This document shows, piece by piece, positions 28,165 through 62,900 of a DNA stretch of 64,000 nt. The notes beneath the pieces are model-generated. The model was not told the DNA's origin and made no database searches. It saw only the letters and a program-made list of their open reading frames with translations. A program made the position numbers and the translations under genes. This stretch comes from Bacteroidota bacterium. Lineage in GTDB: Bacteria; Bacteroidota; Bacteroidia; Chitinophagales; Chitinophagaceae. Location: contig JAFDXK010000002.1 of assembly GCA_018267965.1 (NCBI GenBank), forward strand, positions 806,001 to 870,000. Direction: 5' to 3'. Each line of letters starts with the position of its first letter. Position 1 is the first letter of the stretch.

Positions 28165-28230
28165 TTGATAAGAGTCACTTGTATGGCTGACTTTGATCAT
28201 GGCCCATCGTAGTGCATATAGATATTTTTG
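28165..28230 (+). promoter_or_regulatory. Tandem Crp/Fnr-type operators and -7 box before the DUF6544/CoA-transferase operon
   Basis: Two sites, TTGATAAGAGTCAC (28165-28178) and CTGACTTTGATCAT (28187-28200), have centres 22 bp apart. The -7 box TATTTTTG (28223-28230) begins 29.5 bp after the second centre. The gene start is at 28258. The same geometry recurs at the other candidate operators of this window. Confidence 0.65.
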
Positions 28231-28257
28231 GCGTTTATCAGTGATAATGAATATATA

Positions 28258-29088
28258 ATGAAGACCATATTGACAAATAGTGTCATTGTCATATTGCTGC
28301 TGATAGTAACTGCGGCTATTGCATATTGGAATTTTAACAGGTCTACGCAAACCGAAGCTGCAAGAATTTTACAAACTTCTCAGCATACCCAATCTGAAAT
28401 AGTAACATTGTCAATGATTCAACATTTGCCTTTGTCCGTGCAGAAATGGCAAATCAATTCAGGGGTTATCGGAAAAGAGTTAACCAGAACTGTGCATCTT
28501 AAACAACAAGGCTATATGCGTACAAGCCTTGATGGTAAATGGATGCATACAAAAGCAGAACAATGGTTTAACGTTAGCAAGCCTGCATTTGTTTGGGCTG
28601 CTAAAGTGAATATGAATTCAATGCTGTTTTTTACAGGCTGCGACAAGTTTGAAAACGGCAAGGGAGATATGCGTATCAAAATTCTTGCGCTTATACCAGT
28701 AGTGCATGGTACCGGAAAAGAAACAGACCAGGGAACGATGCTCAGGTACCTGGGCGAGATATGTTGGTTCCCCTCTGCAGCATTAAGCGCATATTTGCAT
28801 TGGGAACCTATCAATGATTATTCTGCAAAAGCCACCATGACATATAACGGGATGAGTGTGTCAGCTGTTTTCGAATTTGATGCTGACTACAATTTGAAAG
28901 GTATATCTGCCAAACGTTATAAAGGCAGTGGCGATGAGGCAGCATTAGAGGATTGGTATATACCATGCACTGAATGGAAGGTATTGAACGGAGTAAAAAT
29001 ACCTGTAAAAGGAGATGCTATTTGGAAACTGAAAGAAGGAGATTTGAATTATTATAAATGGGAGATAACTTCGATAGAATATAACTGA
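28258..29088 (+). CDS. DUF6544-like membrane-anchored protein
   Basis: A 276-aa protein with one N-terminal membrane helix (S-V-I-V-I-L-L-L-I-V-T-A-A-I-A-Y-W) followed by a beta-rich domain. Visible runs are L-P-x-S-V-Q-K-W near 54, the W-F-x-V-x-x-P-A-F-V-W-A strand, G-x-M-L-R-Y-L-x-E-x-x-W-F-P-S-A in the middle and the final Y-Y-K-W-E-I-T-S-I-E-Y. These match what I remember of DUF6544, a family of unknown role. An upstream in-frame ATG at 28228 is rejected because it lies within the -7 box. It starts a two-gene operon with the CoA-transferase. Confidence 0.72.
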   Translation: MKTILTNSVIVILLLIVTAAIAYWNFNRSTQTEAARILQTSQHTQSEIVTLSMIQHLPLSVQKWQINSGVIGKELTRTVHLKQQGYMRTSLDGKWMHTKAEQWFNVSKPAFVWAAKVNMNSMLFFTGCDKFENGKGDMRIKILALIPVVHGTGKETDQGTMLRYLGEICWFPSAALSAYLHWEPINDYSAKATMTYNGMSVSAVFEFDADYNLKGISAKRYKGSGDEAALEDWYIPCTEWKVLNGVKIPVKGDAIWKLKEGDLNYYKWEITSIEYN

Positions 29089-29090
29089 CA

Positions 29091-30398
29091 ATGAGAAATA
29101 ATAAGATGACTGTAGTAAGTGCCGAACAGGCTGTAGCGATGGTGCAGAGCGGAGACAGGGTGTTTTTGCAGGGAGGGGCTGCTACGCCAACCTACCTTAT
29201 CAATACACTACTGAAACGTGGAGGTGAGATAACCAATGTAGAGCTGGTATCTATAAGTCTGCACGGACAAATAGACTGGAACCATCAGTATGTACTGAAC
29301 AACTTCTACCTGAATTCTCTTTTTGTTTCTCAGAATGTGCGTGAATGGGTAAATAGTGACAGGGGAGAGTATGTGCCAGCGTTTCTTAGCGAGATACCTG
29401 CCATGTTCAGGAACAGGATATTACCGCTTGATGTGGCTATTGTGCAAATATCAATGCCAGATGAAAATGGATATTGTACGCTGGGCCCTTCCGTAGATGT
29501 TGTTGCAAGTGCTGTACAATGTGCCAAAAAGGTAATAGCACAAGTGAACCCTAACATGCCAAGAGTGTTTGGTGACGGCGTTTTTCATGTGTCCCAGTTT
29601 GATGCCATAGTGACTTGCGATGATGAGCTGACTGAGGTGATGTACAGCAGTAGAGAGGATGAACACTTTACAAAAATTGGTAACCATGTAGCCAGCCTTA
29701 TTGACGACGGAGCTACGCTGCAAATGGGTATAGGACATATACCCGATGCAGTGTTAAGTTGCCTTACACATCATCAGCATTTAGGAATACATACAGAAAT
29801 GTTTTCCGATGGTGTAATACCGTTAATAGAGAAGGGCATAATTACCAATGAAAGAAAAAAACTGAACAAGGGAAAAACAGTCAGTTCTTTTGTATTGGGT
29901 TCAAAAAAATTATACAAATTTATTGACAACAACCCGGTGGTTCGTTGCCTTGAATCGAGCTATGTCAACGACAGGGATATCATAAGAAAGAACCCTAACG
30001 TTGTTGCCATTAATAGCGCTATAGAAGTAGATATTACAGGGCAGGTATGTGCAGATTCGATAGGTACCTACCAATATTCGGGCATTGGCGGACAAATGGA
30101 TTTTATGCGTGGTGCATCATTGTCAGAAGGCGGAAAACCGATAATAGCGCTGCCATCTGTAACAGATAAGGGTGTTTCAAGAATAGTCCCCTTCCTGAAA
30201 CAGGGTGCAGGGGTGGTTACCACTCGCGGACATATACATTATGTGGCTACTGAATACGGTGTTGTGAATTTATATGGTAAAAATTTGGCCCAGCGTGCAA
30301 AATTGCTCATAAGTATTGCTCATCCTATGCACAGAGATATGCTGGAGAAGAGTTACTACGACAGGTTTGTAAAAAACAAACCAATGTCAGCGTCTTAA
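29091..30398 (+). CDS. Acetyl-CoA hydrolase/transferase family CoA-transferase
   Basis: A 435-aa class I CoA-transferase related to 4-hydroxybutyrate/acetate CoA-transferases. The attacking Glu236 lies in G-I-H-T-E-M-F-S-D-G. The acyl-CoA-binding stretches D-F-M-R-G-A and T-R-G-H-I-H-Y-V-A-T-E-Y-G-V-V-N-L-Y-G are intact. Length is normal (430-440). It would move CoA between a short-chain acid and acetyl-CoA. Only 2 bp separate it from the preceding DUF6544-like gene. Shared control with cbb3 genes suggests a role in low-oxygen carbon flow (inference). Confidence 0.88.
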   Translation: MRNNKMTVVSAEQAVAMVQSGDRVFLQGGAATPTYLINTLLKRGGEITNVELVSISLHGQIDWNHQYVLNNFYLNSLFVSQNVREWVNSDRGEYVPAFLSEIPAMFRNRILPLDVAIVQISMPDENGYCTLGPSVDVVASAVQCAKKVIAQVNPNMPRVFGDGVFHVSQFDAIVTCDDELTEVMYSSREDEHFTKIGNHVASLIDDGATLQMGIGHIPDAVLSCLTHHQHLGIHTEMFSDGVIPLIEKGIITNERKKLNKGKTVSSFVLGSKKLYKFIDNNPVVRCLESSYVNDRDIIRKNPNVVAINSAIEVDITGQVCADSIGTYQYSGIGGQMDFMRGASLSEGGKPIIALPSVTDKGVSRIVPFLKQGAGVVTTRGHIHYVATEYGVVNLYGKNLAQRAKLLISIAHPMHRDMLEKSYYDRFVKNKPMSAS

Positions 30399-30399
30399 A

Positions 30400-30443
30400 G
30401 TGACGGCGGTCATATTTTATAAAGGTATGACTGAAGAAATTTG
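30400..30443 (+). promoter_or_regulatory. Crp/Fnr-type operator and -7 box before the persulfide dioxygenase
   Basis: GTGACGGCGGTCAT (30400-30413) begins two bases after the CoA-transferase stop. GAAATTTG (30436-30443), one mismatch from TAnnTTTG, starts 29.5 bp after its centre. The ATG follows at 30461. No clear second site is seen 22 bp upstream, where the sequence is still coding. Confidence 0.6.
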
Positions 30444-30460
30444 CTGTTCAAAATATATTT

Positions 30461-31879
30461 ATGATAGTTGAACAGTTATATACAGGATGTCTCGCTCAGG
30501 CAGCCTATTACATTGAAAGTAATGGTGAAGCTGCAGTGATAGACCCATTGCGCGATATTGAAGCGTACACTCAAAAAGCAAAACAGAATAATGCTGTCAT
30601 TAAATACGTATTTGAGACCCATTTTCACGCAGATTTTGTTTCCGGGCATGTTGATCTGGCAAAACAGACCGGGGCTCAGATAGTATATGGCCCAACTGCG
30701 AAACCGGGCTTTGATGCTCTGGTTGCTGCTGACGAACAGGTTTTTAAATTAGGCAATGTCAGTATTAAACTGTTGCACACTCCAGGGCATACACTCGAAA
30801 GCTGTTGTTATTTGTTGATAGACGAAGCAGGTGAAGAAAAAATACTTTTTTCGGGAGATACCATTTTTCTGGGGGATGTTGGCCGCCCTGACCTTGCACA
30901 GAAAGCTGCAAACATGACACAAGAGGAACTTGCCGGTATGTTGTATGATTCAATTCAAACTAAAATAATGCCTCTTGCTGACAGTATAGTAGTTTACCCT
31001 GCACATGGTGCGGGCAGTGCTTGTGGCAAAAATATGAGTGCTGATAAGTTTGACAATCTTGGTCATCAGAAGCAAACCAACTACGCTATGCGAAAAGGCA
31101 TTAGTCGTGAGGAATTTATTACAGAAGTGCTCACTGGGCTTGTAAAGCCACCTCAGTATTTTCCTTTCAATGTAGCAATGAACAAGCAAGGGTACAAAAA
31201 TATTGATGAAGTGATAAAAAGAGGGCTTACGCCATTGTCTGTTGAGGCATTTGAAGTAGCAGCAGAAGAAACAGAAGCACTGATACTGGATACAAGAAGT
31301 GAAAAATTGTTTGTGAAAGGATTTGTACCCGGTGCTATCAATATTGGTTTAGGTGGTGATTTCGCCCCCTGGGTTGGTACATTGATTACTAACATCGAAC
31401 AGCCCATTCTTTTTATAGCAGAACGCGGGAAAGAAAAAGAAGTTATTACAAGGTTGGCAAGGGTAGGATATAATAATACCATAGGCTATCTTGATGGCGG
31501 ACTGGAAGAATGGCAAATGGCAGGCAAACCTGTCAATACTATTAAATCAATAACTCCTGATGAACTGGCTGATACACTCGAAGAACATCCTACTGCAATG
31601 CTGTTGGATGTGCGACGTAAGAGTGAGTATGATTCACAACATATTATAGGTGCTGAGAGTGTACCATTGGATACTATCAATGAAACAATGGGGCAATTGG
31701 ACAAGGAAACAACATATTTAGTGCATTGTGCAGCAGGTTATCGTTCAGTAATATTTATATCCATCCTGATGGCAAGAGGATACAATAACTTTGTAAATGT
31801 GGAAGGTGGGTTTAATGCGATACTTGCCAACGGCAGATTCAATACCAGTCATTATGAGAAACCTATAACTATGTTATAA
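30461..31879 (+). CDS. Persulfide dioxygenase (ETHE1-like) with two rhodanese domains
   Basis: A 472-aa fusion. Residues 1-240 are a metallo-beta-lactamase-fold dioxygenase: T-H54-F-H56-A-D58-F-V-S-G-H63, then H-T-P-G-H-T, G-D-T-I-F-L-G-D-V-G-R-P-D and Y-P-A-H-G-A-G-S. Two rhodanese domains follow. The first (about 265-360) has A-E-R where the catalytic Cys should be and is probably inactive. The second (about 375-465) has Cys423 in H-C-A-A-G-Y-R-S. The protein oxidises persulfides to sulfite and moves sulfane sulfur, detoxifying H2S. It has its own operator-type site and shares a transcript with the next gene. Confidence 0.93.
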   Translation: MIVEQLYTGCLAQAAYYIESNGEAAVIDPLRDIEAYTQKAKQNNAVIKYVFETHFHADFVSGHVDLAKQTGAQIVYGPTAKPGFDALVAADEQVFKLGNVSIKLLHTPGHTLESCCYLLIDEAGEEKILFSGDTIFLGDVGRPDLAQKAANMTQEELAGMLYDSIQTKIMPLADSIVVYPAHGAGSACGKNMSADKFDNLGHQKQTNYAMRKGISREEFITEVLTGLVKPPQYFPFNVAMNKQGYKNIDEVIKRGLTPLSVEAFEVAAEETEALILDTRSEKLFVKGFVPGAINIGLGGDFAPWVGTLITNIEQPILFIAERGKEKEVITRLARVGYNNTIGYLDGGLEEWQMAGKPVNTIKSITPDELADTLEEHPTAMLLDVRRKSEYDSQHIIGAESVPLDTINETMGQLDKETTYLVHCAAGYRSVIFISILMARGYNNFVNVEGGFNAILANGRFNTSHYEKPITML

Positions 31880-32286: not shown

Positions 32287-32290
32287 CCCA

Positions 32291-33001: not shown

Positions 33002-33002
33002 T

Positions 33003-33452: not shown

Positions 33453-33463
33453 AATGATTTTTT

Positions 33464-34867: not shown

Positions 34868-34893
34868 CAATGATTGTTTTAGTTCGTCGTCAC

Positions 34894-36036: not shown

Positions 36037-36049
36037 AGTCTGCGGTTTT

Positions 36050-36226: not shown

Positions 36227-36238
36227 TGTTTACTATTT

Positions 36239-38377
36239 TTAGTTGCTTGCTGTTTTTTGTTCCAGTTTAATGTCTCTGCCTATGCGTTGCAAATAAGCTA
36301 TCAGTGCTACTATTTCTTTATTGCTTTTCACTTGTATGTTATCCTTGCTGAGGCCTGCAACTATTTGTTCTGCCTGCTTTTTAAGGTCATCGTTTGCTTT
36401 CATATCATAACCCTTTTCATAAGGCACGCCCAGTGTTTGCATCGCCCTAATCTTTGCAGGTGTTATCGCCATGTCAATTTCATTTTCAAATAACCATGGA
36501 TACGAAGGCATGATAGAACCCGGAGACATACTTGACGGCTCGTACATGTGGTTGAAGTGCCAGCTGTCAGGATATTTACCGCCAACCCGTGCCAAATCCG
36601 GACCAGTGCGTTTACTACCCCATTGGAAAGGGTGGTCGTACACAAACTCACCTGCTTTAGAGTATTCACCATAACGAGCCACCTCACTGCGGAAAGGACG
36701 TACCATTTGGCTGTGGCAGGTATAGCAACCTTCACGAACATATATATCGCGGCCTTGCAACTCAAGCGGTGTATATGGTTTAACACTGCTAATGGTTGGT
36801 ATATTAGATTTAACAAGGAAAGTTGGAATAATTTCTATTGCACCACCTATTGCTACTAATACCAGGCTCAATACCATCATTTGTACAGGACGACGTTCTA
36901 TCCACCTGTGCCAGTGATGACTGCCATGATCTACATATTCTTTAGTTAATGGAGCTGCTTCTGCTGCTTCATCATTTACAGCTTTACCCATTCTTACTGT
37001 TCTGATGAGGTTATAAGTCATCATTACAGCACCCAGCAAATACAGTGTACCACCTATACCACGCATCATGTAGAAAGGACGCATTTGCGTTACTGTTTCC
37101 ATGAACTGGTATTTCAATTGGCCTTCTGGTGTAAACTCTTTCCATGCAAGACTCTGCATAAAACCAGCCCAGTACATTGGTACAGCGTAGAATACTATAC
37201 CCAAAGTGCCTATCCAGAAGTGCCAGTTAGCCATCTTTGTAGAATACAGGTTAGTCTTGAATATTTTAGGGATCAACCAGTATAGTACGCCGAACGTCAT
37301 GAAACCGTTCCAGCCTAAAGCACCAACGTGCACGTGAGCAATTGTCCAATCGGTAAAGTGGCTGATAGCATTTACATTTTTCAAACTCAGCATCGGGCCT
37401 TCAAACGTAGCCATACCATAAGCTGTTACGGCTACCACCAGGAATTTCAACACTACATCCTCGCGTACTTTATCCCATGCGCCACGTAGTGTCAACAGAC
37501 CATTCAACATACCACCCCAGGATGGGGCAATCAGCATTACTGAGAATACAGTACCTAATGATTGTGCCCAGTCAGGTAATGCTGTATATAACAAGTGGTG
37601 AGGGCCTGCCCAGATGTAAATGAAAATCAGCGCCCAGAAGTGAATGATGGAAAGTCTGTAAGAGTATACCGGACGATTTGCGATCTTAGGGAGGAAGTAA
37701 TACATCACACCCAGATATGGAGTAGTAAGGAAGAATGCCACGGCATTGTGTCCGTACCACCATTGCACCAAAGCGTCTTGCACACCCGCATACCAAGAGT
37801 ATGATTTCAGCATACTGAATGGGATTTCCCATGAGTTAACGATATGCAGCATGGCCACAGTAACAAACGTGGCTATATAGAACCATATCGCAACGTACAG
37901 GTGGCGTTCACGGCGTTTGATGATAGTACCAAACATGTTGACACCAAATGTTACCCATACCAGTGCTATTAAAATATCAATAGGCCATTCCAACTCTGCA
38001 TATTCTTTACCCGTTGTATACCCGAGTAATAATGTCAGAGCTGCAAGAACTATTATCAACTGCCATCCCCAGAAATGTAATTTGCTGAGGAAGTCGCTGA
38101 ACATTCTTGCTTTACACAGGCGTTGCAACGAATAGTACACACCCATGAAAATACCGTTACCCACAAATGCGAATATCACCGCATTGGTGTGTACCGGCCT
38201 TACGCGGCCAAATGTAGTGGCAGCAGTATTCAGGTTTAAAACAGGGAATACCAATTGAAATGCAGCAAGTAACCCTGCCAGCATACCAACTAATCCCCAT
38301 AAGATTGTGGCATACGCAAACCATTTTACGATCTTATTATCATAAAAGAATTTGTCTAATTGTGCTGTGTTGGTCAT
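36239..38377 (-). CDS. ccoNO: cbb3-type cytochrome c oxidase, fused subunits I and II
   Basis: A 712-aa fusion. Residues 1-465 are the CcoN heme-copper core with about 12 helices and the ligand histidines in W-W-Y-G-H-N-A-V-A-F-F, A-G-P-H-H-L-L-Y and D-W-T-I-A-H-V-H-V-G-A-L-G-W. From about 500 a membrane anchor leads to CcoO with one heme c site C-Y-T-C-H-S-Q and P-S-Y-P-W near the axial Met region. It reduces O2 with high affinity and pumps protons. The fusion is usual in Bacteroidota. The start at 38377 (M-T-N-T-A-Q-L) is chosen because the upstream extension overlaps ccoS. Confidence 0.94.
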   Translation of the reverse strand: MTNTAQLDKFFYDNKIVKWFAYATILWGLVGMLAGLLAAFQLVFPVLNLNTAATTFGRVRPVHTNAVIFAFVGNGIFMGVYYSLQRLCKARMFSDFLSKLHFWGWQLIIVLAALTLLLGYTTGKEYAELEWPIDILIALVWVTFGVNMFGTIIKRRERHLYVAIWFYIATFVTVAMLHIVNSWEIPFSMLKSYSWYAGVQDALVQWWYGHNAVAFFLTTPYLGVMYYFLPKIANRPVYSYRLSIIHFWALIFIYIWAGPHHLLYTALPDWAQSLGTVFSVMLIAPSWGGMLNGLLTLRGAWDKVREDVVLKFLVVAVTAYGMATFEGPMLSLKNVNAISHFTDWTIAHVHVGALGWNGFMTFGVLYWLIPKIFKTNLYSTKMANWHFWIGTLGIVFYAVPMYWAGFMQSLAWKEFTPEGQLKYQFMETVTQMRPFYMMRGIGGTLYLLGAVMMTYNLIRTVRMGKAVNDEAAEAAPLTKEYVDHGSHHWHRWIERRPVQMMVLSLVLVAIGGAIEIIPTFLVKSNIPTISSVKPYTPLELQGRDIYVREGCYTCHSQMVRPFRSEVARYGEYSKAGEFVYDHPFQWGSKRTGPDLARVGGKYPDSWHFNHMYEPSSMSPGSIMPSYPWLFENEIDMAITPAKIRAMQTLGVPYEKGYDMKANDDLKKQAEQIVAGLSKDNIQVKSNKEIVALIAYLQRIGRDIKLEQKTASN

Positions 38378-38393
38378 TATTGAATCTTTATTA

Positions 38394-38555
38394 TTATTCT
38401 TGAATGGTTTTATCAATGTTGTTGTCGTATAGCATACGCATTGCAGCCCCTTCTTTGTCATCGAACTGGTCGCTGTTTACGCTCCACACAAAGGCCAAAA
38501 GGAAAAAGCCTGCTACCAGTAAACTTGCTGCAATCATTATATACAATGCACTCAT
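38394..38555 (-). CDS. ccoS: cbb3 oxidase maturation protein CcoS
   Basis: A 53-aa protein from ATG 38555. It has a single helix (L-Y-I-M-I-A-A-S-L-L-V-A-G-F-F-L-L-A-F-V-W) followed by the diagnostic S-V-N-S-D-Q-F-D-D-K-E-G-A-A-M-R-M-L. CcoS is needed to insert heme and copper into cbb3 oxidase. It is the first gene of the structural operon, 16 bp ahead of ccoNO, and lies directly behind the tandem operator at 38610-38645. Confidence 0.92.
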   Translation of the reverse strand: MSALYIMIAASLLVAGFFLLAFVWSVNSDQFDDKEGAAMRMLYDNNIDKTIQE

Positions 38556-38579
38556 CGTGGGTGTTTCGAATTAATGAGT

Positions 38580-38645
38580 CAAAACTAATTTCACGTCAAT
38601 GGCCGTTTGATGACTTCACTCCAGCTAAAACATGATTTTCGTCAT
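38580..38645 (-). promoter_or_regulatory. Tandem Crp/Fnr-type operators and -7 box before the cbb3 operon
   Basis: ATGATTTTCGTCAT (38632-38645, inside a longer ACATGA...TCATGT palindrome) and a degenerate site with a perfect half, ATGACTTCACTCCA (38610-38623), have centres 22 bp apart. On the minus strand the -7 box TAGTTTTG begins at 38587, exactly 29.5 bp from the nearer centre. ccoS starts at 38555. Confidence 0.68.
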
Positions 38646-38652
38646 GTTTTTA

Positions 38653-41085
38653 CTAGCCTATAAGAGATAACCCGTGACGTTTTGCTACAATACTGCTGAT
38701 GCCCGTAGAAATCATTACAATGCTCAGTGTGCTGATAGGCATTAGTATTGCAGCTATCATAGGGCTCATTAAGCCCTGCATAGATATGGTCAACCCTACA
38801 ACATTGTATAGAATAGATATTACAAATGCTGTATTGATGATATGTTTAGCTGCATTGGCTAATCTTAGTAATGAAGAAAATTTTGATATTTTACTGGCAT
38901 CTAATATGGCATCGCAGGAAGGCGAAAAATTGTTAATGTCATCAGACAGGGTAATACCAACATTGCTCTGTTGCAGCGCTCCTGCGTCATTGAGGCCGTC
39001 ACCTACCATCAGCACTTTTTTGCCCGATTGTTGTAGTAGTTCTATGTAACGCAACTTATCCATAGGTTTCTGCTCAAATAATAATGTAGCCCTGCTGCCA
39101 AAAATATCCGTTAAAACACCTCTTTGCCTATCGTTATCACCCGAGAGCATTGATAATTGATAGTTGTGTGCCAGCTTGGGAATTAGGTTGGGAATATTAT
39201 CCCTGAACTCCGGTGTGATGTGAAATGCAGTTACACTATCATTATAACGTATATAAACTGCTGCAGTATCTTTTTCAGAAGGAACTACACCTGTATGAAA
39301 TGCGGAACCAATACGTATTGAGTCGCCATTGTAAGATGCAGTAATACCTTTGCCGGGTATTTCGTTCCAGCTAGTCAGCTCAATCTTAGGGTATGCTCCC
39401 AGATGAGATGCCAATGATTTGCTGTACGGATGTGTGCTCTGTACTGCAATGTTATACAGTACAGCTTTTTCTTGCTCATTTAGTGCATGGCCTGAGAATG
39501 AATACTGATTACTGCCTGCTGTAAGTGTTCCTGTTTTGTCAAATACAATATGGTCAATGTTACCCAGTTGTTCTATAACAGTAGCATCGCGCAGGAACAA
39601 GCCGTTATTGCTGAGCAGCCTTAGTATATTACCGTTGGTATAGCTGGCCGCCAGCAACAATGCGCAAGGACACGCTACTATCAACATTGCTGATACACTT
39701 GGCAATATATTGGCAGGGTTAACAACGTACCAATACATAGCAGTAAGCGTGGCAAGGCTTAATAATATAATTGTAAAATACCTGCTGAGTTTGTGAATAA
39801 CACTATGCTTATTGTTTTGCTCAGCTTTGTCTTTTGAGAAACTATAGTGATTCCATAAAGATGTCAGATAGCTGCCGGCAACAGGTTTTATCAACTGTAA
39901 TTTGAGTTTTTCTCCAGTTTGTTTACCGCCTGCATATACAATATTGCCCTTAATGATATTCACAGGCTCAGACTCCCCGGTTACGAAACTGTAATCGATG
40001 TTAGCAACCCCGTCCAATACTATCGCGTCGGCGGGAATAATCTCGCCGTTATGTAATTCTACAATGTCTTTTTCCTTTAGTTCTTGCAGTGCACAAGGTT
40101 TAGCTACTCCGTCTTTTATAACATTTACCGCTATTGGGAAGTATGATTTATAATCCCTGTGAAAGGATATAGATTTATATGCTCTTTCCTGTACTATGCG
40201 CCCTATAAGCATAAAGAATACAATGCCTGTCATGCTATCCAGGTATCCGCTGCCCGTATTGGTAGCTATTTCATAAATACTACGTCCGAAAGTAATAATG
40301 AGAGCCAGTACAATAGGGGCATCAATATTCAGCATACGTTGTTTCAGCCCGGCCCATGCTGAACTGAAAAATTCTGATGCACTGTAGAAAAAAACAGGCA
40401 GTGCCAATGCCAGATTCAGATAGCGGAATAGTTGTGCATATTGATGCTCAATACCTAAGTCACTGGACAGGTATTCGGGGAAACTCATAAGCATGATGTT
40501 TCCGAAACAAAAGCCTGCAACTCCCAGTTTGTATATTTTCTTTTTAGATGCAGGAGATTTTTTTTGTTCTTCATTAGCATCAAGGCTTATGTAAGGCTCA
40601 TAACCTATTGTTGCCAGTAGCTCAACTATCTTTCTCAAGCTGATTTTTGATTCAAGAAAGTGGATGGTAAGCTCCTTAGCCCCGAAGTTCAGCCTACTTT
40701 CTGTAATGCCATCATTGAGTTTTGTCATGTGTTCCAGCAACCACATACAAGAACTGCAATGAATGCCGGGTATATATAGCTTCACAATGGAATGTTTCCC
40801 ATTGGTAAAAGTGTATAGCTTGTTTGCAATGGCTTTATCGTCCAAATAGGCATATTTGTCCGCTCTTATTCCTTTTATTTGAGAAAGCCCCGGATGCGAT
40901 TGCAGGGCATAATAGTCACAAAGCCCGTTCTCATTCAGTATTTCATATACCAACTTGCAACCCTCGCAGCAAAATGTCTTATCGTCTTTGCTTATGGCTG
41001 TTGTTACACATTCCACACCGCAATGAAAGCAGGGCGTATTAGGTTTTTGTATTTGTTCTAAAGGCTTTTCCTTAGCTGTAAACAT
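38653..41085 (-). CDS. ccoI: Copper-transporting P1B-type ATPase CcoI
   Basis: An 810-aa copper pump for cbb3 assembly. In order: an N-terminal Cys-rich module (C-F-H-C-G-V-E-C ... F-C-C-E-G-C), a heavy-metal-associated domain (G-I-H-C-S-S-C-M-W), membrane helices, the actuator loop T-G-E-S, the transport motif C-P-C-A-L-L-L-A, the phosphorylation site D-K-T-G-T-L-T and the hinge G-D-G-L-N-D-A. The N-terminal layout (metal-binding Cys4 before HMA) is that of FixI/CcoI rather than CopA. Its start overlaps the stop of the preceding 139-aa gene by 14 bp. Confidence 0.94.
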   Translation of the reverse strand: MFTAKEKPLEQIQKPNTPCFHCGVECVTTAISKDDKTFCCEGCKLVYEILNENGLCDYYALQSHPGLSQIKGIRADKYAYLDDKAIANKLYTFTNGKHSIVKLYIPGIHCSSCMWLLEHMTKLNDGITESRLNFGAKELTIHFLESKISLRKIVELLATIGYEPYISLDANEEQKKSPASKKKIYKLGVAGFCFGNIMLMSFPEYLSSDLGIEHQYAQLFRYLNLALALPVFFYSASEFFSSAWAGLKQRMLNIDAPIVLALIITFGRSIYEIATNTGSGYLDSMTGIVFFMLIGRIVQERAYKSISFHRDYKSYFPIAVNVIKDGVAKPCALQELKEKDIVELHNGEIIPADAIVLDGVANIDYSFVTGESEPVNIIKGNIVYAGGKQTGEKLKLQLIKPVAGSYLTSLWNHYSFSKDKAEQNNKHSVIHKLSRYFTIILLSLATLTAMYWYVVNPANILPSVSAMLIVACPCALLLAASYTNGNILRLLSNNGLFLRDATVIEQLGNIDHIVFDKTGTLTAGSNQYSFSGHALNEQEKAVLYNIAVQSTHPYSKSLASHLGAYPKIELTSWNEIPGKGITASYNGDSIRIGSAFHTGVVPSEKDTAAVYIRYNDSVTAFHITPEFRDNIPNLIPKLAHNYQLSMLSGDNDRQRGVLTDIFGSRATLLFEQKPMDKLRYIELLQQSGKKVLMVGDGLNDAGALQQSNVGITLSDDINNFSPSCDAILDASKISKFSSLLRLANAAKHIINTAFVISILYNVVGLTISMQGLMSPMIAAILMPISTLSIVMISTGISSIVAKRHGLSLIG

Positions 41086-41491
41086 TGATCTCCTTTTGGG
41101 CTTCGATAATTTTAGGCAGCAATATTTGTTCTTCTACGAACAGTAATTCATTTATGATGACCGCCATGTCTGATGCAGCAGGGTAAGATTCACCCTGTTT
41201 CATATTGTTGATGGAACCTGTAAATTCAACTGTTTTTAATTTATGTTGTACTTCACATTTACCTGAGCAGTTGCTGCAATCATGCCCGGTTGCTGCTTTG
41301 CCGTGTAATTCATACACATAAGGTACTATGATATCTTTCCTGAGTTGTATAAAGTCTTTAAGCCCCTGTGCGGTACTGTAATTTTCACTGTCAAAAAAGC
41401 CTTCAATAACTCTGTAATAGTCTGTATTGATGTTGTCTACCAACTCGGGCAGTGTCAGGTTGTTATATTTTAGATATAAGTGGTCGGCCAT
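41072..41491 (-). CDS. Helical protein with a Cys cluster, translationally coupled to ccoI
   Basis: A 139-aa predicted cytoplasmic, mostly helical protein. Its middle has H-D-C-S-N-C-S-G-K-C-E-V-Q-H, three cysteines and two histidines within 14 residues, a likely metal or cluster site. Scattered E/H in the helices would also allow a hemerythrin-like bundle, but the classic H-x3-E spacing is not clear. The gene overlaps ccoI by 14 bp and is the first gene behind the divergent operator, so it probably acts in copper delivery or redox sensing for cbb3 assembly. I do not recognise the family. Confidence 0.7.
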   Translation of the reverse strand: MADHLYLKYNNLTLPELVDNINTDYYRVIEGFFDSENYSTAQGLKDFIQLRKDIIVPYVYELHGKAATGHDCSNCSGKCEVQHKLKTVEFTGSINNMKQGESYPAASDMAVIINELLFVEEQILLPKIIEAQKEINVYS

Positions 41492-41496
41492 AGATG

Positions 41497-41592
41497 TAAA
41501 AGTATTGGCGCCTATAAGCTTAAAACATGATTATAGTATCCCCAAAGAATGACATTGGTCATCTCTTGTAGGGTGGTTTTAGGTTAATATTG
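41497..41592. promoter_or_regulatory. Divergent promoter region with two Crp/Fnr-type operators
   Basis: ATGATTATAGTATC (41527-41540) and the perfect palindrome ATGACATTGGTCAT (41549-41562) have centres 22 bp apart. A -7-like box lies 29.5 bp outside each: TACTTTTA on the minus strand (41504 down to 41497) for the ccoI operon and TAATATTG on the plus strand (41585-41592) for the coiled-coil gene. The layout is symmetric about the pair. Confidence 0.65.
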
Positions 41593-41691
41593 CCTTAGTG
41601 ATAAGAATCAGTGTTGCGGCTGACAAAGGTTCTATTCGCTCATTAAAGGCATATTTACTTTTACCAAAAATGGAAAGTGCTACGAACAAAC

Positions 41692-42015
41692 ATGATTAAT
41701 ACTAAACAACAGGACGAAAGGTATACATGGCTGCGTATGCTTGATATTATCCAGTTGGAAAATATCGAGTTGAAGAATCAATTGGCCGAATTGGTCAGGA
41801 ATGGAATTGGAAGTAAAACACTGGAAAAGGCGGAATACTATCAAAATGAATTTCTGAATAAAGATACTGTAGTCGCACTGTTACGCCGCGACGTTATAAG
41901 ATATAGCGATGCTGATAATTCTCAGCAAGGTAAATTACGCAGAGATATGGACCTGATGCAAAAGGAATTCAGCCGTCTTAAAACGGAATTTAATAATTAC
42001 CTTATCAGAAAATAG
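41692..42015 (+). CDS. Coiled-coil protein of unknown function
   Basis: A 107-aa hydrophilic protein from ATG 41692 (a GTG at 41677 would add five residues). Heptad-like runs are seen at about 12-45 (M-L-D-I-I-Q-L-E-N-I-E-L-K-N-Q-L-A-E-L) and 78-105 (L-R-R-D-M-D-L-M-Q-K-E-F-S-R-L-K-T-E-F-N-N-Y-L). The middle contains V-A-L-L-R-R-D-V-I-R-Y. No enzyme motif or membrane segment. It converges on the response regulator gene and diverges from the ccoI operon, sharing its operators, so a link to the kinase system is possible. Confidence 0.7.
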   Translation: MINTKQQDERYTWLRMLDIIQLENIELKNQLAELVRNGIGSKTLEKAEYYQNEFLNKDTVVALLRRDVIRYSDADNSQQGKLRRDMDLMQKEFSRLKTEFNNYLIRK

Positions 42016-42024: not shown

Positions 42025-43089
42025 TTAATTTACAAGGTTAGAAAGTTTTTTCTCATCCAGTATTGTTATATCACCATGTTCTATACTGATAAGTCTTTCA
42101 TCTTTAAAGTCGCTTAAAGTTCTGATCACTGATTCTTTGGCTGTACCTGCAATGTTTGCCAGATTCTCCCGGCTAATATCTATTTTAAAACCATTCTTTC
42201 CGCCACTGTATTTAGATTGTATGATAAGTAAAGCATCGGCTACTTTTTTGCGCAACGAGTTATAAGCAAGTTTCAATAGTTGTTGCTCCATATCAGTAAC
42301 ATTATTTGCCAATAACCTGATAAACTTTTGCATCACCTCCTTGTTGTTATTAATCAGTTGTTCAAAGTCTTCCTGGGGTATAATTGCCAGTTCCGTATCT
42401 TCTAGCGTTTCGGCAGTTTCTTTATAATTTGTTCCTTCCAGCATGGCCATATATCCAAAGAAGTCACCGGCATTGTATAAGCCGGTAACCAATTCTTTGC
42501 CATCATCATTGGTTTTATAAACTTTTACTTTACCGCTTTCAACATAGTACATCCTGTATGGTTTACCACCTTCAGAATAAATTACCTGTTTCTTTTTTAA
42601 AGTATTCGTGCTTCTGTTTTGTGCAATATTTTTTAGGGCATCTGCGCCTCCTGCTGCACTTACCAACTCATCAAAACCACTCATGCCCGATGGAAGTTCC
42701 TTTTTTACCAGGTCAGATTTTCTCAGTCTTGCCTCAATGGCGTTGAGCAATTCTGTGCCGTTAAATGGCTTGGTTATGTAGTCATCCGCACCCAGATCCA
42801 TTCCCTTTCGTATTTCAGAACGTTCGGCTTTTGCTGTAAGGAATATGAATGGTATGTTTTGAGTGTCAGGATTTTTTTGCAACATATGAATCACACCGTA
42901 CCCATCCAGCACAGGCATCATAATATCGCATACTATAAGGTCTGGTTTATACTGCACAGCTAATGCAACACCCTCCTTTCCGTCAGGTGCCAGGTATACC
43001 TTATAATTTGACATTTCAAGTATTTCCGACATATTGTCGCGTATCTCGTCATTGTCCTCTATCAGCAGGATGCTTTTCATGTTATTCAT
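42025..43089 (-). CDS. Response regulator fused to a Crp/Fnr-type DNA-binding module
   Basis: A 354-aa hybrid. Residues 4-125 are a receiver domain: acidic pair E11-D12, phospho-acceptor Asp55 in V-C-D-I-M-M-P, and the F-L-T-A-K lysine. Residues about 150-270 form a cyclic-nucleotide-binding-type beta barrel (V-I-Y-S-E-G-G-K-P-Y-R-M-Y-Y-V-E-S-G-K-V-K). Residues about 285-354 are a Crp-type winged helix, with S-R-E-N-L-A-N-I-A-G-T-A-K-E-S-V-I-R-T-L as helix-turn-helix. No Cys cluster for O2 is seen, so the signal should come by phosphorylation. The kinase gene lies upstream and overlaps by 8 bp. It is the best candidate to bind the TGAY-N4-RTCA operators. Confidence 0.92.
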   Translation of the reverse strand: MNNMKSILLIEDNDEIRDNMSEILEMSNYKVYLAPDGKEGVALAVQYKPDLIVCDIMMPVLDGYGVIHMLQKNPDTQNIPFIFLTAKAERSEIRKGMDLGADDYITKPFNGTELLNAIEARLRKSDLVKKELPSGMSGFDELVSAAGGADALKNIAQNRSTNTLKKKQVIYSEGGKPYRMYYVESGKVKVYKTNDDGKELVTGLYNAGDFFGYMAMLEGTNYKETAETLEDTELAIIPQEDFEQLINNNKEVMQKFIRLLANNVTDMEQQLLKLAYNSLRKKVADALLIIQSKYSGGKNGFKIDISRENLANIAGTAKESVIRTLSDFKDERLISIEHGDITILDEKKLSNLVN

Positions 43090-44263
43090 TATGTGCTAAG
43101 TTAAAATTAATAGTGAATGTAGTGCCCTCACCTAAATCGCTCTTCCCGGAAATTACTCCATTCATCAATTCAGTATATTTTGCCACAATATGCAACCCAA
43201 GGCCGGTGCCTTGTATGTTGGTAACATTAGCTCCCCTGAAGAAGCGTTCAAATAAATGTTCCTGGTCTTCTTTTGAAATGCCTATGCCGCTATCTTTTAT
43301 AGATAGTAATAGTGTTTTATTCTCTTCGTTTACTGTAACAATCTCAATCGTAGACCCCTCGGGTGAAAACTTGACAGCATTTGACAATAGGTTCATGACT
43401 ATATGTTTCAGCAATGTTGAGTCAAGATGAATTACTTCGGGGCCGGTATGTTTATAAGATACATGTTGTCCGTTTTTAAATATAGGTTGCATCTCAGACG
43501 TCAGCTCATTAATAAATTGAGGTAGGTTAAAGTCTGAATAGCGAATTTGTATACGGCCTTCTTCTATCTTACCCACTGATAAGAAGTCATTCAGTATATC
43601 ATTCAGCATATTTACAGAAGAGATAACACGCTGTATGTGTTTATCTCTTTTGGGCTGCTCATCTGTATTATGATACTTTGAAAGCAGGTATGCGGAAGAT
43701 AATACAGTACTCAGAGGGGTTCTGAATTCGTGCGATGCCATAGAGACAAATCTGGATTTCAGTTCATTCAGTTCCTTTTCTTTCTCCAGGGCCTCGCTCA
43801 ATGACTGTGTTCTTTGCTTTACTTTTTCTTCCAGTTCTGCATTGAGTTGTAACAATGCATTTTCTGATTCTTTCCTTATACTGATGTCGCTGATAAAGGC
43901 TATTGCATATTGCCCCTCTTCTGTCATATAAGGACTCAAACTAACCTCTACAGGAAATTCAGTTCCGTCTTTTTTTACGGCAAATAGGTCCATTCCTACG
44001 CCCATAGGCCTGCTGTGGGCATTTTTACCATGATATCTGTCCCTGTGGCCTATATGTGTTTCCCTAAACCTGCGCGGTATCAGGATTTCTATTTTTTGAC
44101 CAATTAACTCTTCGGAACTGTAGCCAAACTGTTTGATGCCAAAATCGTTGATAGTGATTATTTCGCCGTTATTATTGGTCATAATGATGCCAATAGCAGC
44201 ATTGTTAAATAGTGCTTTAAATTCTCTGGTTTGATTATTATAATTCACATCGAAAAATAACAT
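43082..44263 (-). CDS. PAS-domain sensor histidine kinase, FixL-like
   Basis: A 393-aa soluble kinase if started at ATG 44263; upstream in-frame codons reach 44371 but would cross the operator and are rejected. Residues 14-130 are a PAS domain of the FixL sequence type: G-I-I-M-T-N-N-N-G-E-I, F-G-Y-S-S-E-E-L-I-G-Q, then R-F-R-E-T-H70-I-G-H-R-D-R-Y, where His70 aligns with the heme ligand of FixL. A coiled coil follows (135-172), then the H-box with His178 (S-H-E-F-R-T-P-L) and an ATPase domain (N-box N-L-L-S-N-A-V-K-F, G-I-G-I and G-T-G-L-G-L-H). Many non-heme PAS domains share the H-x2-H motif, so oxygen sensing is possible but unproven. Partner: the receiver-Crp protein. Confidence 0.9.
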   Translation of the reverse strand: MLFFDVNYNNQTREFKALFNNAAIGIIMTNNNGEIITINDFGIKQFGYSSEELIGQKIEILIPRRFRETHIGHRDRYHGKNAHSRPMGVGMDLFAVKKDGTEFPVEVSLSPYMTEEGQYAIAFISDISIRKESENALLQLNAELEEKVKQRTQSLSEALEKEKELNELKSRFVSMASHEFRTPLSTVLSSAYLLSKYHNTDEQPKRDKHIQRVISSVNMLNDILNDFLSVGKIEEGRIQIRYSDFNLPQFINELTSEMQPIFKNGQHVSYKHTGPEVIHLDSTLLKHIVMNLLSNAVKFSPEGSTIEIVTVNEENKTLLLSIKDSGIGISKEDQEHLFERFFRGANVTNIQGTGLGLHIVAKYTELMNGVISGKSDLGEGTTFTINFNLAHNE

Positions 44264-44332
44264 TTTCCACGGATATATATATGATACTTGTATTAATTGA
44301 ATGCAATATTCCCATACCGCAACCATTAAAAA

Positions 44333-44398
44333 ATGAATACAATCATCCCAAAGGGTGACAACGGTCATCATTTTCGTATTTACCCCAATCTACCTTGC
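44333..44398 (+). promoter_or_regulatory. Tandem Crp/Fnr-type operators before the PLP decarboxylase
   Basis: ATGAATACAATCAT (44333-44346) and GTGACAACGGTCAT (44355-44368) have centres 22 bp apart. TACCTTGC at 44391, a weak -7 box, starts 29.5 bp after the second centre and the ATG is at 44413. The 23 bases 44347-44369 match 41541-41563 at 19 positions. The pair also lies 70-106 bp ahead of the divergent kinase start. Confidence 0.6.
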
Positions 44399-44412
44399 CC
44401 GGAAGTAGAGTT

Positions 44413-48279: not shown

Positions 48280-48323
48280 TTGACAAGAGTGATAATAATA
48301 CCAAAACAGTATCGTTATTTTTA
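48280..48323 (+). promoter_or_regulatory. Possible degenerate Crp/Fnr-type operator and -7 box before the Rieske gene
   Basis: TTGACAAGAGTGAT (48280-48293) has one good half-site and one mismatch in the other. TATTTTTA (48316-48323) begins 29.5 bp after its centre and the Rieske ATG is at 48346. The rest of the 250-bp gap 48096-48345 is AT-rich with only a short AAACAT...ATGTTT inverted repeat at 48138-48160. Confidence 0.45.
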
Positions 48324-48345: not shown

Positions 48346-48750
48346 ATGGAAAGAAGGGATTTTATTAAAGCGTCATGTGCTTTTTGTGGTATTGCAATGA
48401 TACCCGGAGTAATTAGCAGTTGCAAAAAAACGCCTTCAAATAAAAGCGTAAACTTTACGTTAGATTTAACCAATAGTTCAAACTCAGCACTAAAGAGCGT
48501 TGGAGGATCTGTTGTCTCAAACGATGTGTTGGTTATGTGCACGGCTGCCAATACTTATGCTGCAGTTGCTGATGCTTGCACGCATGAAGGTTGCGCACTC
48601 AACTACGATGCTTCTTCAAAACAAGTGGCATGCCCTTGCCACGGCGGCAGGTTTAGTACAGCCGGAGATGTGATTTCAGGGCCTCCGAAAACAGCCTTGC
48701 AAAAGTTTAATGTCTCTAAGTCAGGAGATATTTTGACTATTACTTCGTAG
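48346..48750 (+). CDS. Rieske 2Fe-2S lipoprotein
   Basis: A 134-aa exported Rieske protein. The N-terminus has a short R-R-D-F-I-K signal and a lipobox-like V-I-S-S-C near residue 26. The cluster ligands are Cys78-x-His80 (A-C-T-H-E-G-C) and Cys96-x2-His99 (C-P-C-H-G-G-R-F), with Cys83 and Cys98 for the stabilising disulfide. It is a single-domain electron carrier not linked to bc1 genes here, likely passing electrons in the periplasm. A weak operator-like site precedes it. Confidence 0.9.
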   Translation: MERRDFIKASCAFCGIAMIPGVISSCKKTPSNKSVNFTLDLTNSSNSALKSVGGSVVSNDVLVMCTAANTYAAVADACTHEGCALNYDASSKQVACPCHGGRFSTAGDVISGPPKTALQKFNVSKSGDILTITS

Positions 48751-54197: not shown

Positions 54198-54202
54198 GAA
54201 TA

Positions 54203-57221: not shown

Positions 57222-57248
57222 AGGACAAAGAAAGTTGGTATAAAGGAA

Positions 57249-57869: not shown

Positions 57870-57889
57870 AACCTGTATGTAAATATAAG

Positions 57890-59614: not shown

Positions 59615-59678
59615 GCGTTGCAAATGTATAAAAGCAACTCATGCCATCTATTGAATGAAAAATGTATATGAATGTATT

Positions 59679-59709
59679 TTTGGAAAATCCGAGTGAAAAC
59701 CTATTTTTG
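59679..59709 (+). promoter_or_regulatory. Promoter of tRNA-Phe
   Basis: TTTG (59679-59682) and TATTTTTG (59702-59709) match the -33/-7 consensus with a 19-bp gap. TATTTTTGCAATCCCAA is identical to the tRNA-Asn promoter at 23196. Confidence 0.82.
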
Positions 59710-59726
59710 CAATCCCAAAACGGGAA

Positions 59727-59799
59727 GGTGCGGTAGCTCAGTTGGTAGAGCAAAGGACTGAAAATCCTTGTGTCGGGGGTTCAATTCCCTCCCGCACCA
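59727..59799 (+). tRNA. tRNA-Phe (anticodon GAA)
   Basis: A 73-nt cloverleaf. Acceptor GGTGCGG pairs with CCGCACC, the D arm is GCTC-AGTTGGTA-GAGC, the anticodon stem AGGA(C)/..TCCT encloses a loop with GAA, and the T arm carries TTCAATT. The discriminator is A and CCA is not encoded. Confidence 0.96.
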
Positions 59800-59805
59800 C
59801 ACTCA

Positions 59806-59837
59806 AAAAAAGCCTCGAAATTTTTCGGGGCTTTTTT
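59806..59837 (+). terminator. Terminator after tRNA-Phe
   Basis: AAAAAGCCTCGAAA and TTTCGGGGCTTTTT form a long stem with one G-T pair, seven bases past the tRNA end, followed by T-rich sequence. It could act in both directions. Confidence 0.88.
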
Positions 59838-59888
59838 ATATCATCGTTTTATTGATTCTATGTCCGTACCTTATGATGAATATATCCG

Positions 59889-61547: not shown

Positions 61548-61598
61548 TAAACTTTTATGAAACGCTATATGAAATAGTTATTTAGGTATTGATGCAAT

Positions 61599-61606
61599 TA
61601 TTTTTG
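61599..61606 (+). promoter_or_regulatory. -7 promoter box of the FMN reductase gene
   Basis: TATTTTTG is an exact TAnnTTTG match 29 bp before the ATG at 61636. No Crp/Fnr-type site is found 29.5 bp ahead of it, which serves as an internal contrast to the other promoters. Confidence 0.55.
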
Positions 61607-61635
61607 ATTGTCCGAAAAACAATGAAAATTGCACT

Positions 61636-62169
61636 ATGCCAAACATCATAGCCATATCAGGTAGTCTGAAAAGCAACTCATCTAATACACGCATACTAAA
61701 GGCAGCAATGCAATTAGCGCCAGAGGAAATGCTGATTGAATTATATGAAGGCATTGGCAACCTACCGCATTTCAATCCTGATATTGATGGAGATAAATCG
61801 CCTGAAGTTGTAAAGCAATATCGTGAGATAATCAAAAATGCAGATGGCGTTTTGATTTGTACTCCGGAATATGCATTTGGAATGCCGGGAGTATTGAAAA
61901 ATGCACTTGATTGGTTGGTAGCATCCGGAGAATTCATGAACAAACCTACAATGGCTATCAGTGCTTCTCCATTAGTATCCGGTGGCAATAAAGCACATGC
62001 ATCGTTGGTGCTAACACTCAAAACTATATCTGCTGATGTAGTAGATGATGCCTCATTGAATATAGGAGCTGTAGCTACAAAACTGGATGCAGAAGGTAAT
62101 CTCGCAGATGATGAAACTATAAATCAGATAAAGAAAGCACTAATTGTTTTTAAAGAAAGTATTAATTAA
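61636..62169 (+). CDS. NADPH-dependent FMN reductase-family flavoprotein
   Basis: A 177-aa flavodoxin-like reductase. The FMN phosphate loop is G-S-L-K-S-N-S-S-N-T at 9-18, then T-P-E-Y-A-F-G-M-P-G-V-L-K-N-A-L-D-W near 77-94 and a S-A-S-P-L-V-S-G-G loop near 115. The family (YhdA/AzoR2/ChrR-like) reduces quinones, azo dyes or chromate with NAD(P)H through FMN. Its 3' end overlaps the converging cytochrome gene by 4 bp. Confidence 0.9.
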   Translation: MPNIIAISGSLKSNSSNTRILKAAMQLAPEEMLIELYEGIGNLPHFNPDIDGDKSPEVVKQYREIIKNADGVLICTPEYAFGMPGVLKNALDWLVASGEFMNKPTMAISASPLVSGGNKAHASLVLTLKTISADVVDDASLNIGAVATKLDAEGNLADDETINQIKKALIVFKESIN

Positions 62170-62837
62170 TTGTTGAGCATTCCTGCAGAAACCCACTTTT
62201 CAATTTGTCTTATCTGGCATGTAGATAAATGTAAACCACTATTGGGCATACCAGGATAGCCTGTTTCATAGTTAATGCATTTGATAAGATTTCTGCTTTG
62301 TACAGCACCCTTTATTTCGGAATATGAGGTTAATAGCAAATTGCCCTGCGGAGCGCTACCTGAATGACAACCGGTGCAATATTTGTTTACTATTGGCTGA
62401 ACACCTGCACTAAAAACATAGTTATCAGAATCACATAGAGGGGTACAATTATTGTCCTTTATTGCACCTTTAACTATCCAGCGTTTGATGAGTGTTATTT
62501 GTTCTTCTGTTAAATTGTCGGCTCCTTTAGGCATCATTTCTTCTGTGGTGCCTGTTACAGACATGTAAATACGGCTTGCCGCATAGTTGCCGGGTACTAT
62601 GCCCTTTTTAATAATATTATCATAGCTGTCTAAAATATAGCCTTTTTTATGTGTGCCCGCATCATGACAACCACTCTTTGCACATTGAGAAATAAATATG
62701 GGAAGAAGGTCTCTGTCAAAACATAACGCAGAGTCACCGGTACGTTCAGAAACAGGTAATACATAGGGTTGATGTTCGCAGGCTGAAAATAGAGCAATAC
62801 CACAGATGAAACCTATTAATAAACCGGTTTTTAGCAT
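62166..62837 (-). CDS. c-type cytochrome lipoprotein with an unusual CX4CH site
   Basis: A 223-aa lipoprotein (lipobox A-L-F-S-A-C near 20). Two heme-site candidates are seen: Cys52-A-K-S-G-Cys57-His58, a CX4CH spacing, and the normal Cys154-T-G-Cys157-His158. Each is followed by the pattern of the PSCyt1 type (G-Y-I-L-D-S-Y-D-N-I-I-K-K-G and G-N-L-L-L-T-S-Y-S-E-I-K-G, then M-P and a W-x-x-x-G-A end). So it looks like a duplicated domain in which the first heme site is variant. It is preceded by an operator-like palindrome at the standard spacing. Confidence 0.83.
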   Translation of the reverse strand: MLKTGLLIGFICGIALFSACEHQPYVLPVSERTGDSALCFDRDLLPIFISQCAKSGCHDAGTHKKGYILDSYDNIIKKGIVPGNYAASRIYMSVTGTTEEMMPKGADNLTEEQITLIKRWIVKGAIKDNNCTPLCDSDNYVFSAGVQPIVNKYCTGCHSGSAPQGNLLLTSYSEIKGAVQSRNLIKCINYETGYPGMPNSGLHLSTCQIRQIEKWVSAGMLNN

Positions 62838-62856
62838 GTTTGTCGTTTTGTTCCGA

Positions 62857-62900
62857 CAAAAATAGTATTATCCGATAGAATAAATTATGATTGCAATCAC
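62857..62900 (-). promoter_or_regulatory. Crp/Fnr-type operator and -7 box before the cytochrome c gene
   Basis: ATGATTGCAATCAC (62887-62900) contains the perfect palindrome TGATTGCAATCA. On the minus strand an exact TATTTTTG box starts at 62864, 29.5 bp from its centre, and the cytochrome ATG follows at 62837. No second site is evident 22 bp further on. Confidence 0.62.

Follow-up and report, generated by a model that had tools for sequence, protein, structure and literature searches.

The 64,000-nt stretch analysed here (the window; positions 806,001–870,000 of contig JAFDXK010000002.1, assembly GCA_018267965.1, a member of the Chitinophagaceae) contains genes for a cbb3-type cytochrome oxidase and its CcoI-type ATPase, a persulfide dioxygenase-like protein, a Rieske protein and a cytochrome c, as well as a histidine kinase gene directly preceding a gene for a response regulator fused to a Crp-type DNA-binding domain (Table 1). 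Upstream of many of these genes are palindromic dyads with the core TGAY-N4-RTCA at a constant distance from a TAnnTTTG-like −7 box, and these are the proposed operators considered here.

The sequence contains all seven exact cores of the original prediction, with every start shifted one base to the right (28166, 28188, 30401, 38633, 41550, 44356 and 62888), and the 29.5 bp claimed between the near-dyad centre and the first base of the box holds throughout, with a dyad–box gap of exactly 23 bp in every listed pair. Two further exact cores lie at 41599 and 6488, the latter discarded as it is inside an open reading frame (ORF). About four chance cores per 64 kb had been anticipated; 4.5 are expected, nine are counted and four of 100 shuffles reach nine, and because this is twice the expectation the core alone proves little, as had been cautioned. 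The boxes correspond to the −7 element TAnnTTTG of the Bacteroidota sigma-ABfr but vary from exact to weak, again as first described. Those at 30436, 41504, 41585, 44391 and 48316 are imperfect: 41504 and 48316 have A instead of G as the final base, and GAAATTTG (30436), TAATATTG (41585) and TACCTTGC (44391) do not conform to TAnnTTTG.

Some targets have a single dyad. At many, in a correction to the original description, the operator consists of two dyads in tandem, with the second beginning exactly 22 bp upstream of the near one. Within the window the exact core first listed at 28165 and the degenerate copies first listed at 38610, 41527 and 44333 are each partnered by a dyad exactly 22 bp away, and there is no such partner at 30401, 48281 or 62888. 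An additional weak pair (41599 exact, 41621 degenerate) has a 23 bp gap to TACTTTTA at 41656, although its matrix score of 12.1 (see below) is less than the best reversed control in the window (15.3); this region (41599–41663) precedes a small rightwards-transcribed ORF (41677–42015).

Crp/Fnr proteins that act as class II activators typically bind with their centre near −41.5 and at a constant distance from the core promoter. The fixed spacing is observed here, and the position follows from published numbering: the −7 element of Flavobacterium johnsoniae is reported to span T−12 to G−5 with four or five nucleotides then separating it from the transcription start (PMC6847099), so that near dyads centred 29.5 bp ahead of T−12 are at −41.5, consistent with the position originally predicted, and far dyads at −63.5.

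The source genome (G000; 3.74 Mb in 13 contigs) was searched for TGAYN4RTCA upstream of TANNTTTG with 31 different gaps allowed, and the gap is exactly 23 bp in eight of 25 pairs (binomial 8e-7). Two of these eight exact sites (N23) are inside the window and six are outside; the reversed control has eight pairs summed over all 31 gaps. Allowing up to one mismatch at the fixed 23-bp gap gives 38 matches compared with seven in the reversed control. Across 15 genomes of the genus, the source genome included, 54 of 100 pairs have the 23-bp gap (21 gaps searched; 46 of 87 without the source genome), nine are one base shorter and 12 one base longer, and the reversed control yields 21 pairs over all gaps. 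The spacing signal is thus beyond chance, which confirms the original observation and extends it far outside the window. Per-genome counts with up to one mismatch are 14–43 in members of the genus with the fusion gene and 14–25 in those without it (reversed controls 2–12), a trend only that is not used as proof. In nine genus pairs the gap is longer by ten bases (about one helical turn), several of these pairs being near-identical between related genomes. A rightwards-transcribed MutL gene (C6:359425) was rejected as a target, with its box 36 bp away and the 23-bp site facing the opposite way, toward an unannotated ORF.

The tandem arrangement is also recovered independently of the box. Searching for RTCA ahead of TGAYN4RTCAT over 29 gaps finds 61 matches, 13 of them at the 10-bp gap equivalent to a 22-bp repeat (binomial 1e-7); the remaining 48 are spread over 28 gaps with no more than four at any one, and the control has 45 over all gaps. 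A position matrix was constructed from 25 sites, comprising 21 of the 38 one-mismatch matches and four window sites with more mismatches. Most of the 17 matches left out lack a T after RTCA and four are inside ORFs; one match that is the other strand of a used window dyad was also omitted, as were C5:465470 and C8:67269 by judgement. Because sites were chosen for the T after RTCA, this base is partly a selection artefact in the matrix; it is present in all eight exact N23 sites. The upstream TCA, which was not selected, is retained in 20, 15 and 18 of the 25 sites at its three bases, and the near half-site continues as RTCATRTTTT. A 22-bp repeat corresponds to two helical turns and would place a second dimer site at −63.5.

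A lack of conservation at orthologous promoters had been named beforehand as a finding that would refute the prediction, and 56 ccoN upstream regions (the source genome, 26 relatives and 29 further genomes of the class) were compared; L099–L101, three of a set of 30 loci, were excluded as fragments or non-orthologues. The prediction withstands this check. Exact TGAN6TCA is separated from TAnnTTT[GA] by 23 bp in 36 of the 56 and by 45 bp (23+22) in 39, with every other gap occurring at most once, and the dyad-to-dyad gap of 10 bp that reflects the 22-bp repeat is present in 43. The strict whole pattern of dyad pair, repeat and gap is kept in 40 of the 56 promoters and does not occur in the 56 reversed controls, and 47 promoters score above the best control using the matrix trained on the source genome. 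Of 12 further ccoN regions from 11 genomes of the class, scored apart, six are above the best control (G042, G049, G076, G093, G103 and G116). A matrix scan of 20 neighbourhoods (390 kb) at a score of 14 gives 58 matches compared with six in the control. Among the sites listed, six neighbourhoods (G004, G005, G006, G007, G009 and G012) have one upstream of the persulfide dioxygenase gene, several have one ahead of ccoI or the leader gene, and one (G003) has a site ahead of the CoA-transferase gene. In G023 a strong site lies 20 bp upstream of its own fusion gene.

The sites had been interpreted as marking a redox regulon, and they do recur at the ccoN, persulfide dioxygenase, ccoI and CoA-transferase genes of relatives. 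In the source genome, the only one examined for the genes that follow, some sites precede genes without an evident redox role (polyphosphate kinase, fasciclin and HSP20). Other sites precede genes for a short-chain dehydrogenase, a second cytochrome c, two MbnP-like proteins, a catalase-peroxidase-like protein and an HgmA/cupin-like protein, and several further genes preceded by sites there have no family match. The regulon is estimated to include 20–30 promoters in this genome. Gene content and homology suggest that it is microaerobic. The cbb3 oxidase of Flavobacterium psychrophilum is reported to be upregulated under oxygen limitation, with no Fnr or Crp match in the main text of that study (PMC9723704).

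Table 1. Genes, dyads and −7 boxes of the window in coordinate order. TGACGAAAATCA is the − strand sequence; PLP, pyridoxal phosphate.
Feature	Coordinates	Strand	Remarks
Far dyad TGATAAGAGTCA, DUF6544/CoA-transferase promoter	28166–28177	+	Tandem pair; 22 bp upstream of 28188
Near dyad TGACTTTGATCA	28188–28199	+	Exact N23 site
−7 box TATTTTTG	28223–28230	+	
Target gene, DUF6544 family	28228–29088	+	Longest ORF (TTG start) overlaps box; true start probably in-frame ATG 28258
Target gene, acetyl-CoA hydrolase/transferase family	29091–30398	+	
Single dyad TGACGGCGGTCA	30401–30412	+	Upstream of persulfide dioxygenase-like gene
−7 box GAAATTTG	30436–30443	+	Without TA
Persulfide dioxygenase-like gene (putative name)	30461–31879	+	Metallo-beta-lactamase fold and rhodanese stretches
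CcoNO fusion, cbb3 oxidase	36239–38461	−	COX1 and FixO domains
−7 box TAGTTTTG, ccoN promoter	38580–38587	−	
Near dyad GGAGTGAAGTCA, ccoN promoter	38611–38622	−	Degenerate
Far dyad TGACGAAAATCA, ccoN promoter	38633–38644	−	Exact
CcoI-type heavy-metal P-type ATPase	38653–41085	−	
Small leader gene of ccoI	41072–41491	−	Without family match
−7 box TACTTTTA	41497–41504	−	
Near dyad ATACTATAATCA, g41072-ccoI promoter	41528–41539	−	
Dyad TGACATTGGTCA	41550–41561	both	Near for + strand, far for − strand
−7 box TAATATTG	41585–41592	+	
Weak tandem pair	41599–41632	+	41599 exact, 41621 degenerate; score 12.1
Proposed regulator	42025–43089	−	Response_reg, cNMP_binding and HTH_Crp_2 fusion
Partner histidine kinase	43082–44263	−	PAS, HisKA and HATPase; ORF extends to 44371; start probably at 44263, outside operator
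Far dyad TGAATACAATCA, PLP-decarboxylase promoter	44334–44345	+	Also weak near dyad facing kinase
Near dyad TGACAACGGTCA, PLP-decarboxylase promoter	44356–44367	+	
−7 box TACCTTGC	44391–44398	+	Weak
PLP-dependent decarboxylase	44395–45651	+	Longest ORF (TTG start) overlaps weak box; true start probably in-frame ATG 44413
Single dyad TGACAAGAGTGA	48281–48292	+	Degenerate
−7 box TATTTTTA	48316–48323	+	
Rieske 2Fe-2S protein	48346–48750	+	
Cytochrome c	62166–62837	−	PSCyt1 / Cytochrome_CBB3
−7 box TATTTTTG	62857–62864	−	
Single dyad TGATTGCAATCA, cytochrome c gene	62888–62899	−	

The gene at 42025–43089 had been put forward as that of the regulator. Its DNA-binding part is of the Crp/Fnr type, but the product is not a plain Crp/Fnr protein, being a fusion of receiver, cyclic-nucleotide-binding (cNMP) and Crp-type helix-turn-helix domains with an adjoining kinase. 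The receiver domain (PF00072, 98.7 bits) contains the phospho-acceptor Asp motif CDIMMP, and the kinase gene lies immediately ahead of the fusion gene, as in a two-component operon. There is no FNR-type N-terminal Cys cluster, and the receiver domain is present there instead. Crp contacts cAMP through Glu72, Arg82 and Ser83, and alignment with E. coli CRP shows that the fusion does not retain these contact residues. Judged by the regulator gene, named relatives are a metagenome-assembled genome (MAG) of Flavipsychrobacter (77% identity), a genus classified in the Chitinophagaceae, and other Bacteroidota MAGs.

The best solved matches of the kinase PAS domain are FixL (E-value 1e-14) and DosP. 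Heme PAS domains of the FixL type have a proximal His and a distal-pocket Arg. All 17 kinases read, including those of G006 and G013 and a paralogue in the source genome, have a His aligned with the one in FixL and DosP that we take to be the heme ligand. The FixL Arg position is occupied by Arg in L014, G016, G023 and G025, and L014 has the FixL-like sequence RIIGVGREV. In this same distant MAG, a dyad and box-like sequence (L014 8696–8761, − strand) face the gene beside the kinase.

Of 50 recognition helices read in fusions (57 loci scanned), 49 have the form E[ST]xIR and the other is ECVIR. In the Crp/Fnr family the Glu of this helix is reported to correlate with half-site A (PMC1274295), and it is retained in the fusions. 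Nine cNMP-domain proteins are encoded by the source genome, and the E[ST]xIR helix is present only in two fusions: the window regulator and a paralogue with 64% identity to it (G000:C8:65698–66756; locus L025, 3199–4257), which forms a second kinase and receiver-Crp pair and whose kinase PAS also contains the conserved His. Another Crp-family protein of this genome (G000:C2:8607–8864; L003) has a Cys-rich N-terminus and the helix KEQVSK. Read toward the kinase (44303–44367, − strand), the decarboxylase operator scores 15.7 with a 22-bp gap, the best reversed control scoring 15.3. This operator may also serve the kinase–regulator operon, and would then mediate autoregulation.

In addition to the window, 10 of 20 ccoN neighbourhoods have the kinase–fusion pair within one stretch together with ccoI-ccoNO-ccoP-ccoG-ccoH, and the pair accompanies part of the cco cluster at two of five named fusion loci. 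Among 80 genomes of the class, the source genome included, 31 have both the fusion (E-value 1e-60 or better) and CcoNO, 11 the fusion only, 10 CcoNO only and 28 neither (42 with the fusion and 41 with CcoNO in total; Fisher 4e-5, uncorrected for kinship), and the two genes are no more than 15 kb apart in 12 of the 31. The fusion is found without detected CcoNO in G044, G045, G050, G053, G056, G064, G073, G082, G083, G097 and G106. The fusion gene of G095 (C1:1599608–1600661), counted among the 42, is in two pieces, one with a stop, and may be broken.

Three members of the genus without the fusion (G004, G007 and G012) have a standalone Crp/Fnr protein with a CxxCx8C motif and the helix GTATETAIR, encoded between the persulfide dioxygenase gene and the ccoI leader gene, and both regulator kinds are present in G009, G014, G020 and G025. 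Among ten genomes of the class that have CcoNO but not the fusion, six encode a standalone E[ST]xIR protein (G040, G065, G107, G114, G042 and G108), the first four with a Cys motif (C-x2-C...C), and the other four (G059, G076, G098 and G103) have no Crp-domain match at the threshold used. Seven of ten fusion-less ccoN promoters have the strict pattern (G004, G007, G012, G040, G065, G107 and G114); G034 has one dyad and a box, and G030 and G098 have neither. A quick tree divides 50 standalone proteins from 51 fusions at a branch whose SH-aLRT (approximate likelihood-ratio test) value is 100, with one very long-branched protein of the source genome (L005) outside both groups. The simplest reading of these sequences is that both families recognize a common set of sites and are interchangeable. 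On balance we favour, by a small measure, a history in which the tandem-dyad design (−63.5/−41.5 plus TAnnTTTG) has been kept class-wide at cbb3 genes, with an FNR-type protein and a receiver-Crp fusion, the latter controlled by a FixL-like kinase, exchanged for one another as its sensor.

The sites are probably operators of a class II activator of the Crp/Fnr family that govern one regulon, with the fusion encoded at 42025–43089, phosphorylated by its PAS kinase, as their most likely reader. The activator would occupy the near dyad at −41.5 of a Bacteroidota housekeeping promoter, often with a second dimer 22 bp upstream at −63.5, and the near half-site RTCATRTTTT would reach into the −33 region. 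The predicted regulon includes genes for the cbb3 oxidase and for its assembly, for the persulfide dioxygenase, for cytochromes c and for the Rieske protein. In the source genome the fusion, and possibly also its C8 paralogue, would be activated via phosphorylation by the adjacent kinase. The PAS domain of that kinase resembles above all the heme PAS domains of FixL and DosP, and the arrangement would correspond to FixL-FixJ-FixK with FixJ and FixK merged in one protein. The geometry, the tandem repeat, their conservation, the domain make-up of the regulator, its linkage to the cco cluster and the common recognition helix are established computationally; binding, activation, phosphorylation and a low-oxygen signal are inferred.

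Several observations weigh against this interpretation. Nine of the 56 ccoN promoters fall below the best control (G015, G030, G036, G060, G084, G091, G092, G098 and G104), seven of them in genomes with the fusion; the other six of the 12 further class regions fail as well (scores 3.7–12.9), and the compared promoters are phylogenetically related rather than independent samples. The kinase–fusion pair is absent from the stretch read in the other 10 of the 20 ccoN neighbourhoods, no cco gene is present within the stretches read at three of the five named fusion loci (L010, L012 and L014), and in 11 of the 42 class genomes with the fusion no CcoNO match passed the threshold. G001 and G003 carry the fusion but have few sites (14 compared with 6 in the control, each). 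Since the strict operator is retained in 7 of 10 fusion-less genomes, its presence is not by itself evidence for the fusion; G076 has the operator yet no regulator match at an E-value of 1e-28, and in G030 and G034 a standalone E[ST]xIR protein is encoded without genome-wide enrichment (10 vs 10 and 10 vs 12). The FixL Arg position is Met in the window kinase and Met or Leu in the genus, so that heme and oxygen sensing are not assured here.

The foremost alternative differs from the preferred explanation in the signal only, with the kinase responding to another redox cue, nitric oxide or sulfide rather than oxygen, and the sites forming a sulfur or redox-stress regulon that includes cbb3. We regard this as a possible but distinctly less favoured reading. 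The persulfide dioxygenase site kept in six relatives, the PAS domains of the genus lacking the FixL Arg, and the peroxidase, HSP20 and MbnP-like genes among the source-genome sites are in its favour, whereas cbb3 is the most widely conserved target, though the sole one tested class-wide, its expression in F. psychrophilum rises under oxygen limitation (PMC9723704), and the Arg is kept in the kinases of four loci or genomes named above. It is unlikely that the operators are real but read in the source genome by another Crp/Fnr protein, such as the Cys-rich C2 protein or one missed by the family search, with the fusion having other targets. Nine cNMP-domain proteins offer candidates, and three fusion-less relatives in the genus have a standalone FNR-like protein beside ccoI, but the C2 helix is not of the E[ST]xIR type found in the two fusions alone, and the fusion adjoins the cco cluster in the window. 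Aerobic repression exerted at these sites, or at the far one, is quite improbable: class II activators characteristically sit at −41.5 with fixed −7 spacing, a constraint that a pure repressor would not require, and several −7 boxes are imperfect. In its favour, the near half-site overlaps the −33 region of the −33/−7 promoter (PMC6847099), where a bound protein could block transcription. Chance palindromes picked by eye, a suspicion encouraged by a core count just twice expectation, can be dismissed given the spacing peak, the tandem peak and the ccoN conservation outside the window.

The proposed system resembles FixL-FixJ-FixK of the Alphaproteobacteria in its kinase with a FixL-heme-PAS-like domain, receiver, Crp-family activator, and cbb3 and ccoGHI-type targets. 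It differs in its Bacteroidota −7 promoter, its tandem dyads and the Met or Leu at the FixL Arg position in the genus, and there is no separate FixJ activating fixK; with the receiver and Crp domain fused in one protein, the pathway would have one step fewer. Operators of FNR, FnrN and FixK have the form TTGAY-N4-RTCAA. The sites described here share their TGAY-N4-RTCA core and class II position at −41.5, but conserve the outer base (T, as RTCAT) on the promoter side only, followed by RTTTT, and have a second dyad 22 bp upstream at ccoN and other targets. HcpR and MalR of the Bacteroidetes are likewise Crp/Fnr-family members of the same phylum, and to our knowledge neither has a receiver domain. 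An HcpR operator variant is TTGACnnnnGTCAA and the HcpR2 motif GTAACnnnnGTTAC is reported at hcp genes (PMC1274295), and MalR has been linked to carbon sources (PMC8510549). In the open-licence literature, the titles and abstract openings among the matches listed contain no account of Bacteroidota high-affinity oxidase control by such sites or by such a fusion.

A further comparison is with the standalone FNR-type proteins encoded beside ccoI in relatives, which share with the fusion the same ccoN operator, E[ST]xIR core and neighbouring genomic place but have no receiver and possess an N-terminal Cys cluster. A single operator layout kept class-wide offers a ready experimental test. In the Caulobacterales, FixLJ-FixK is proposed to have replaced FnrN at existing sites (PMC4999443), and the Bacteroidota sites may represent a similar replacement of the regulator at unchanged DNA sites, here with a fused two-component protein.

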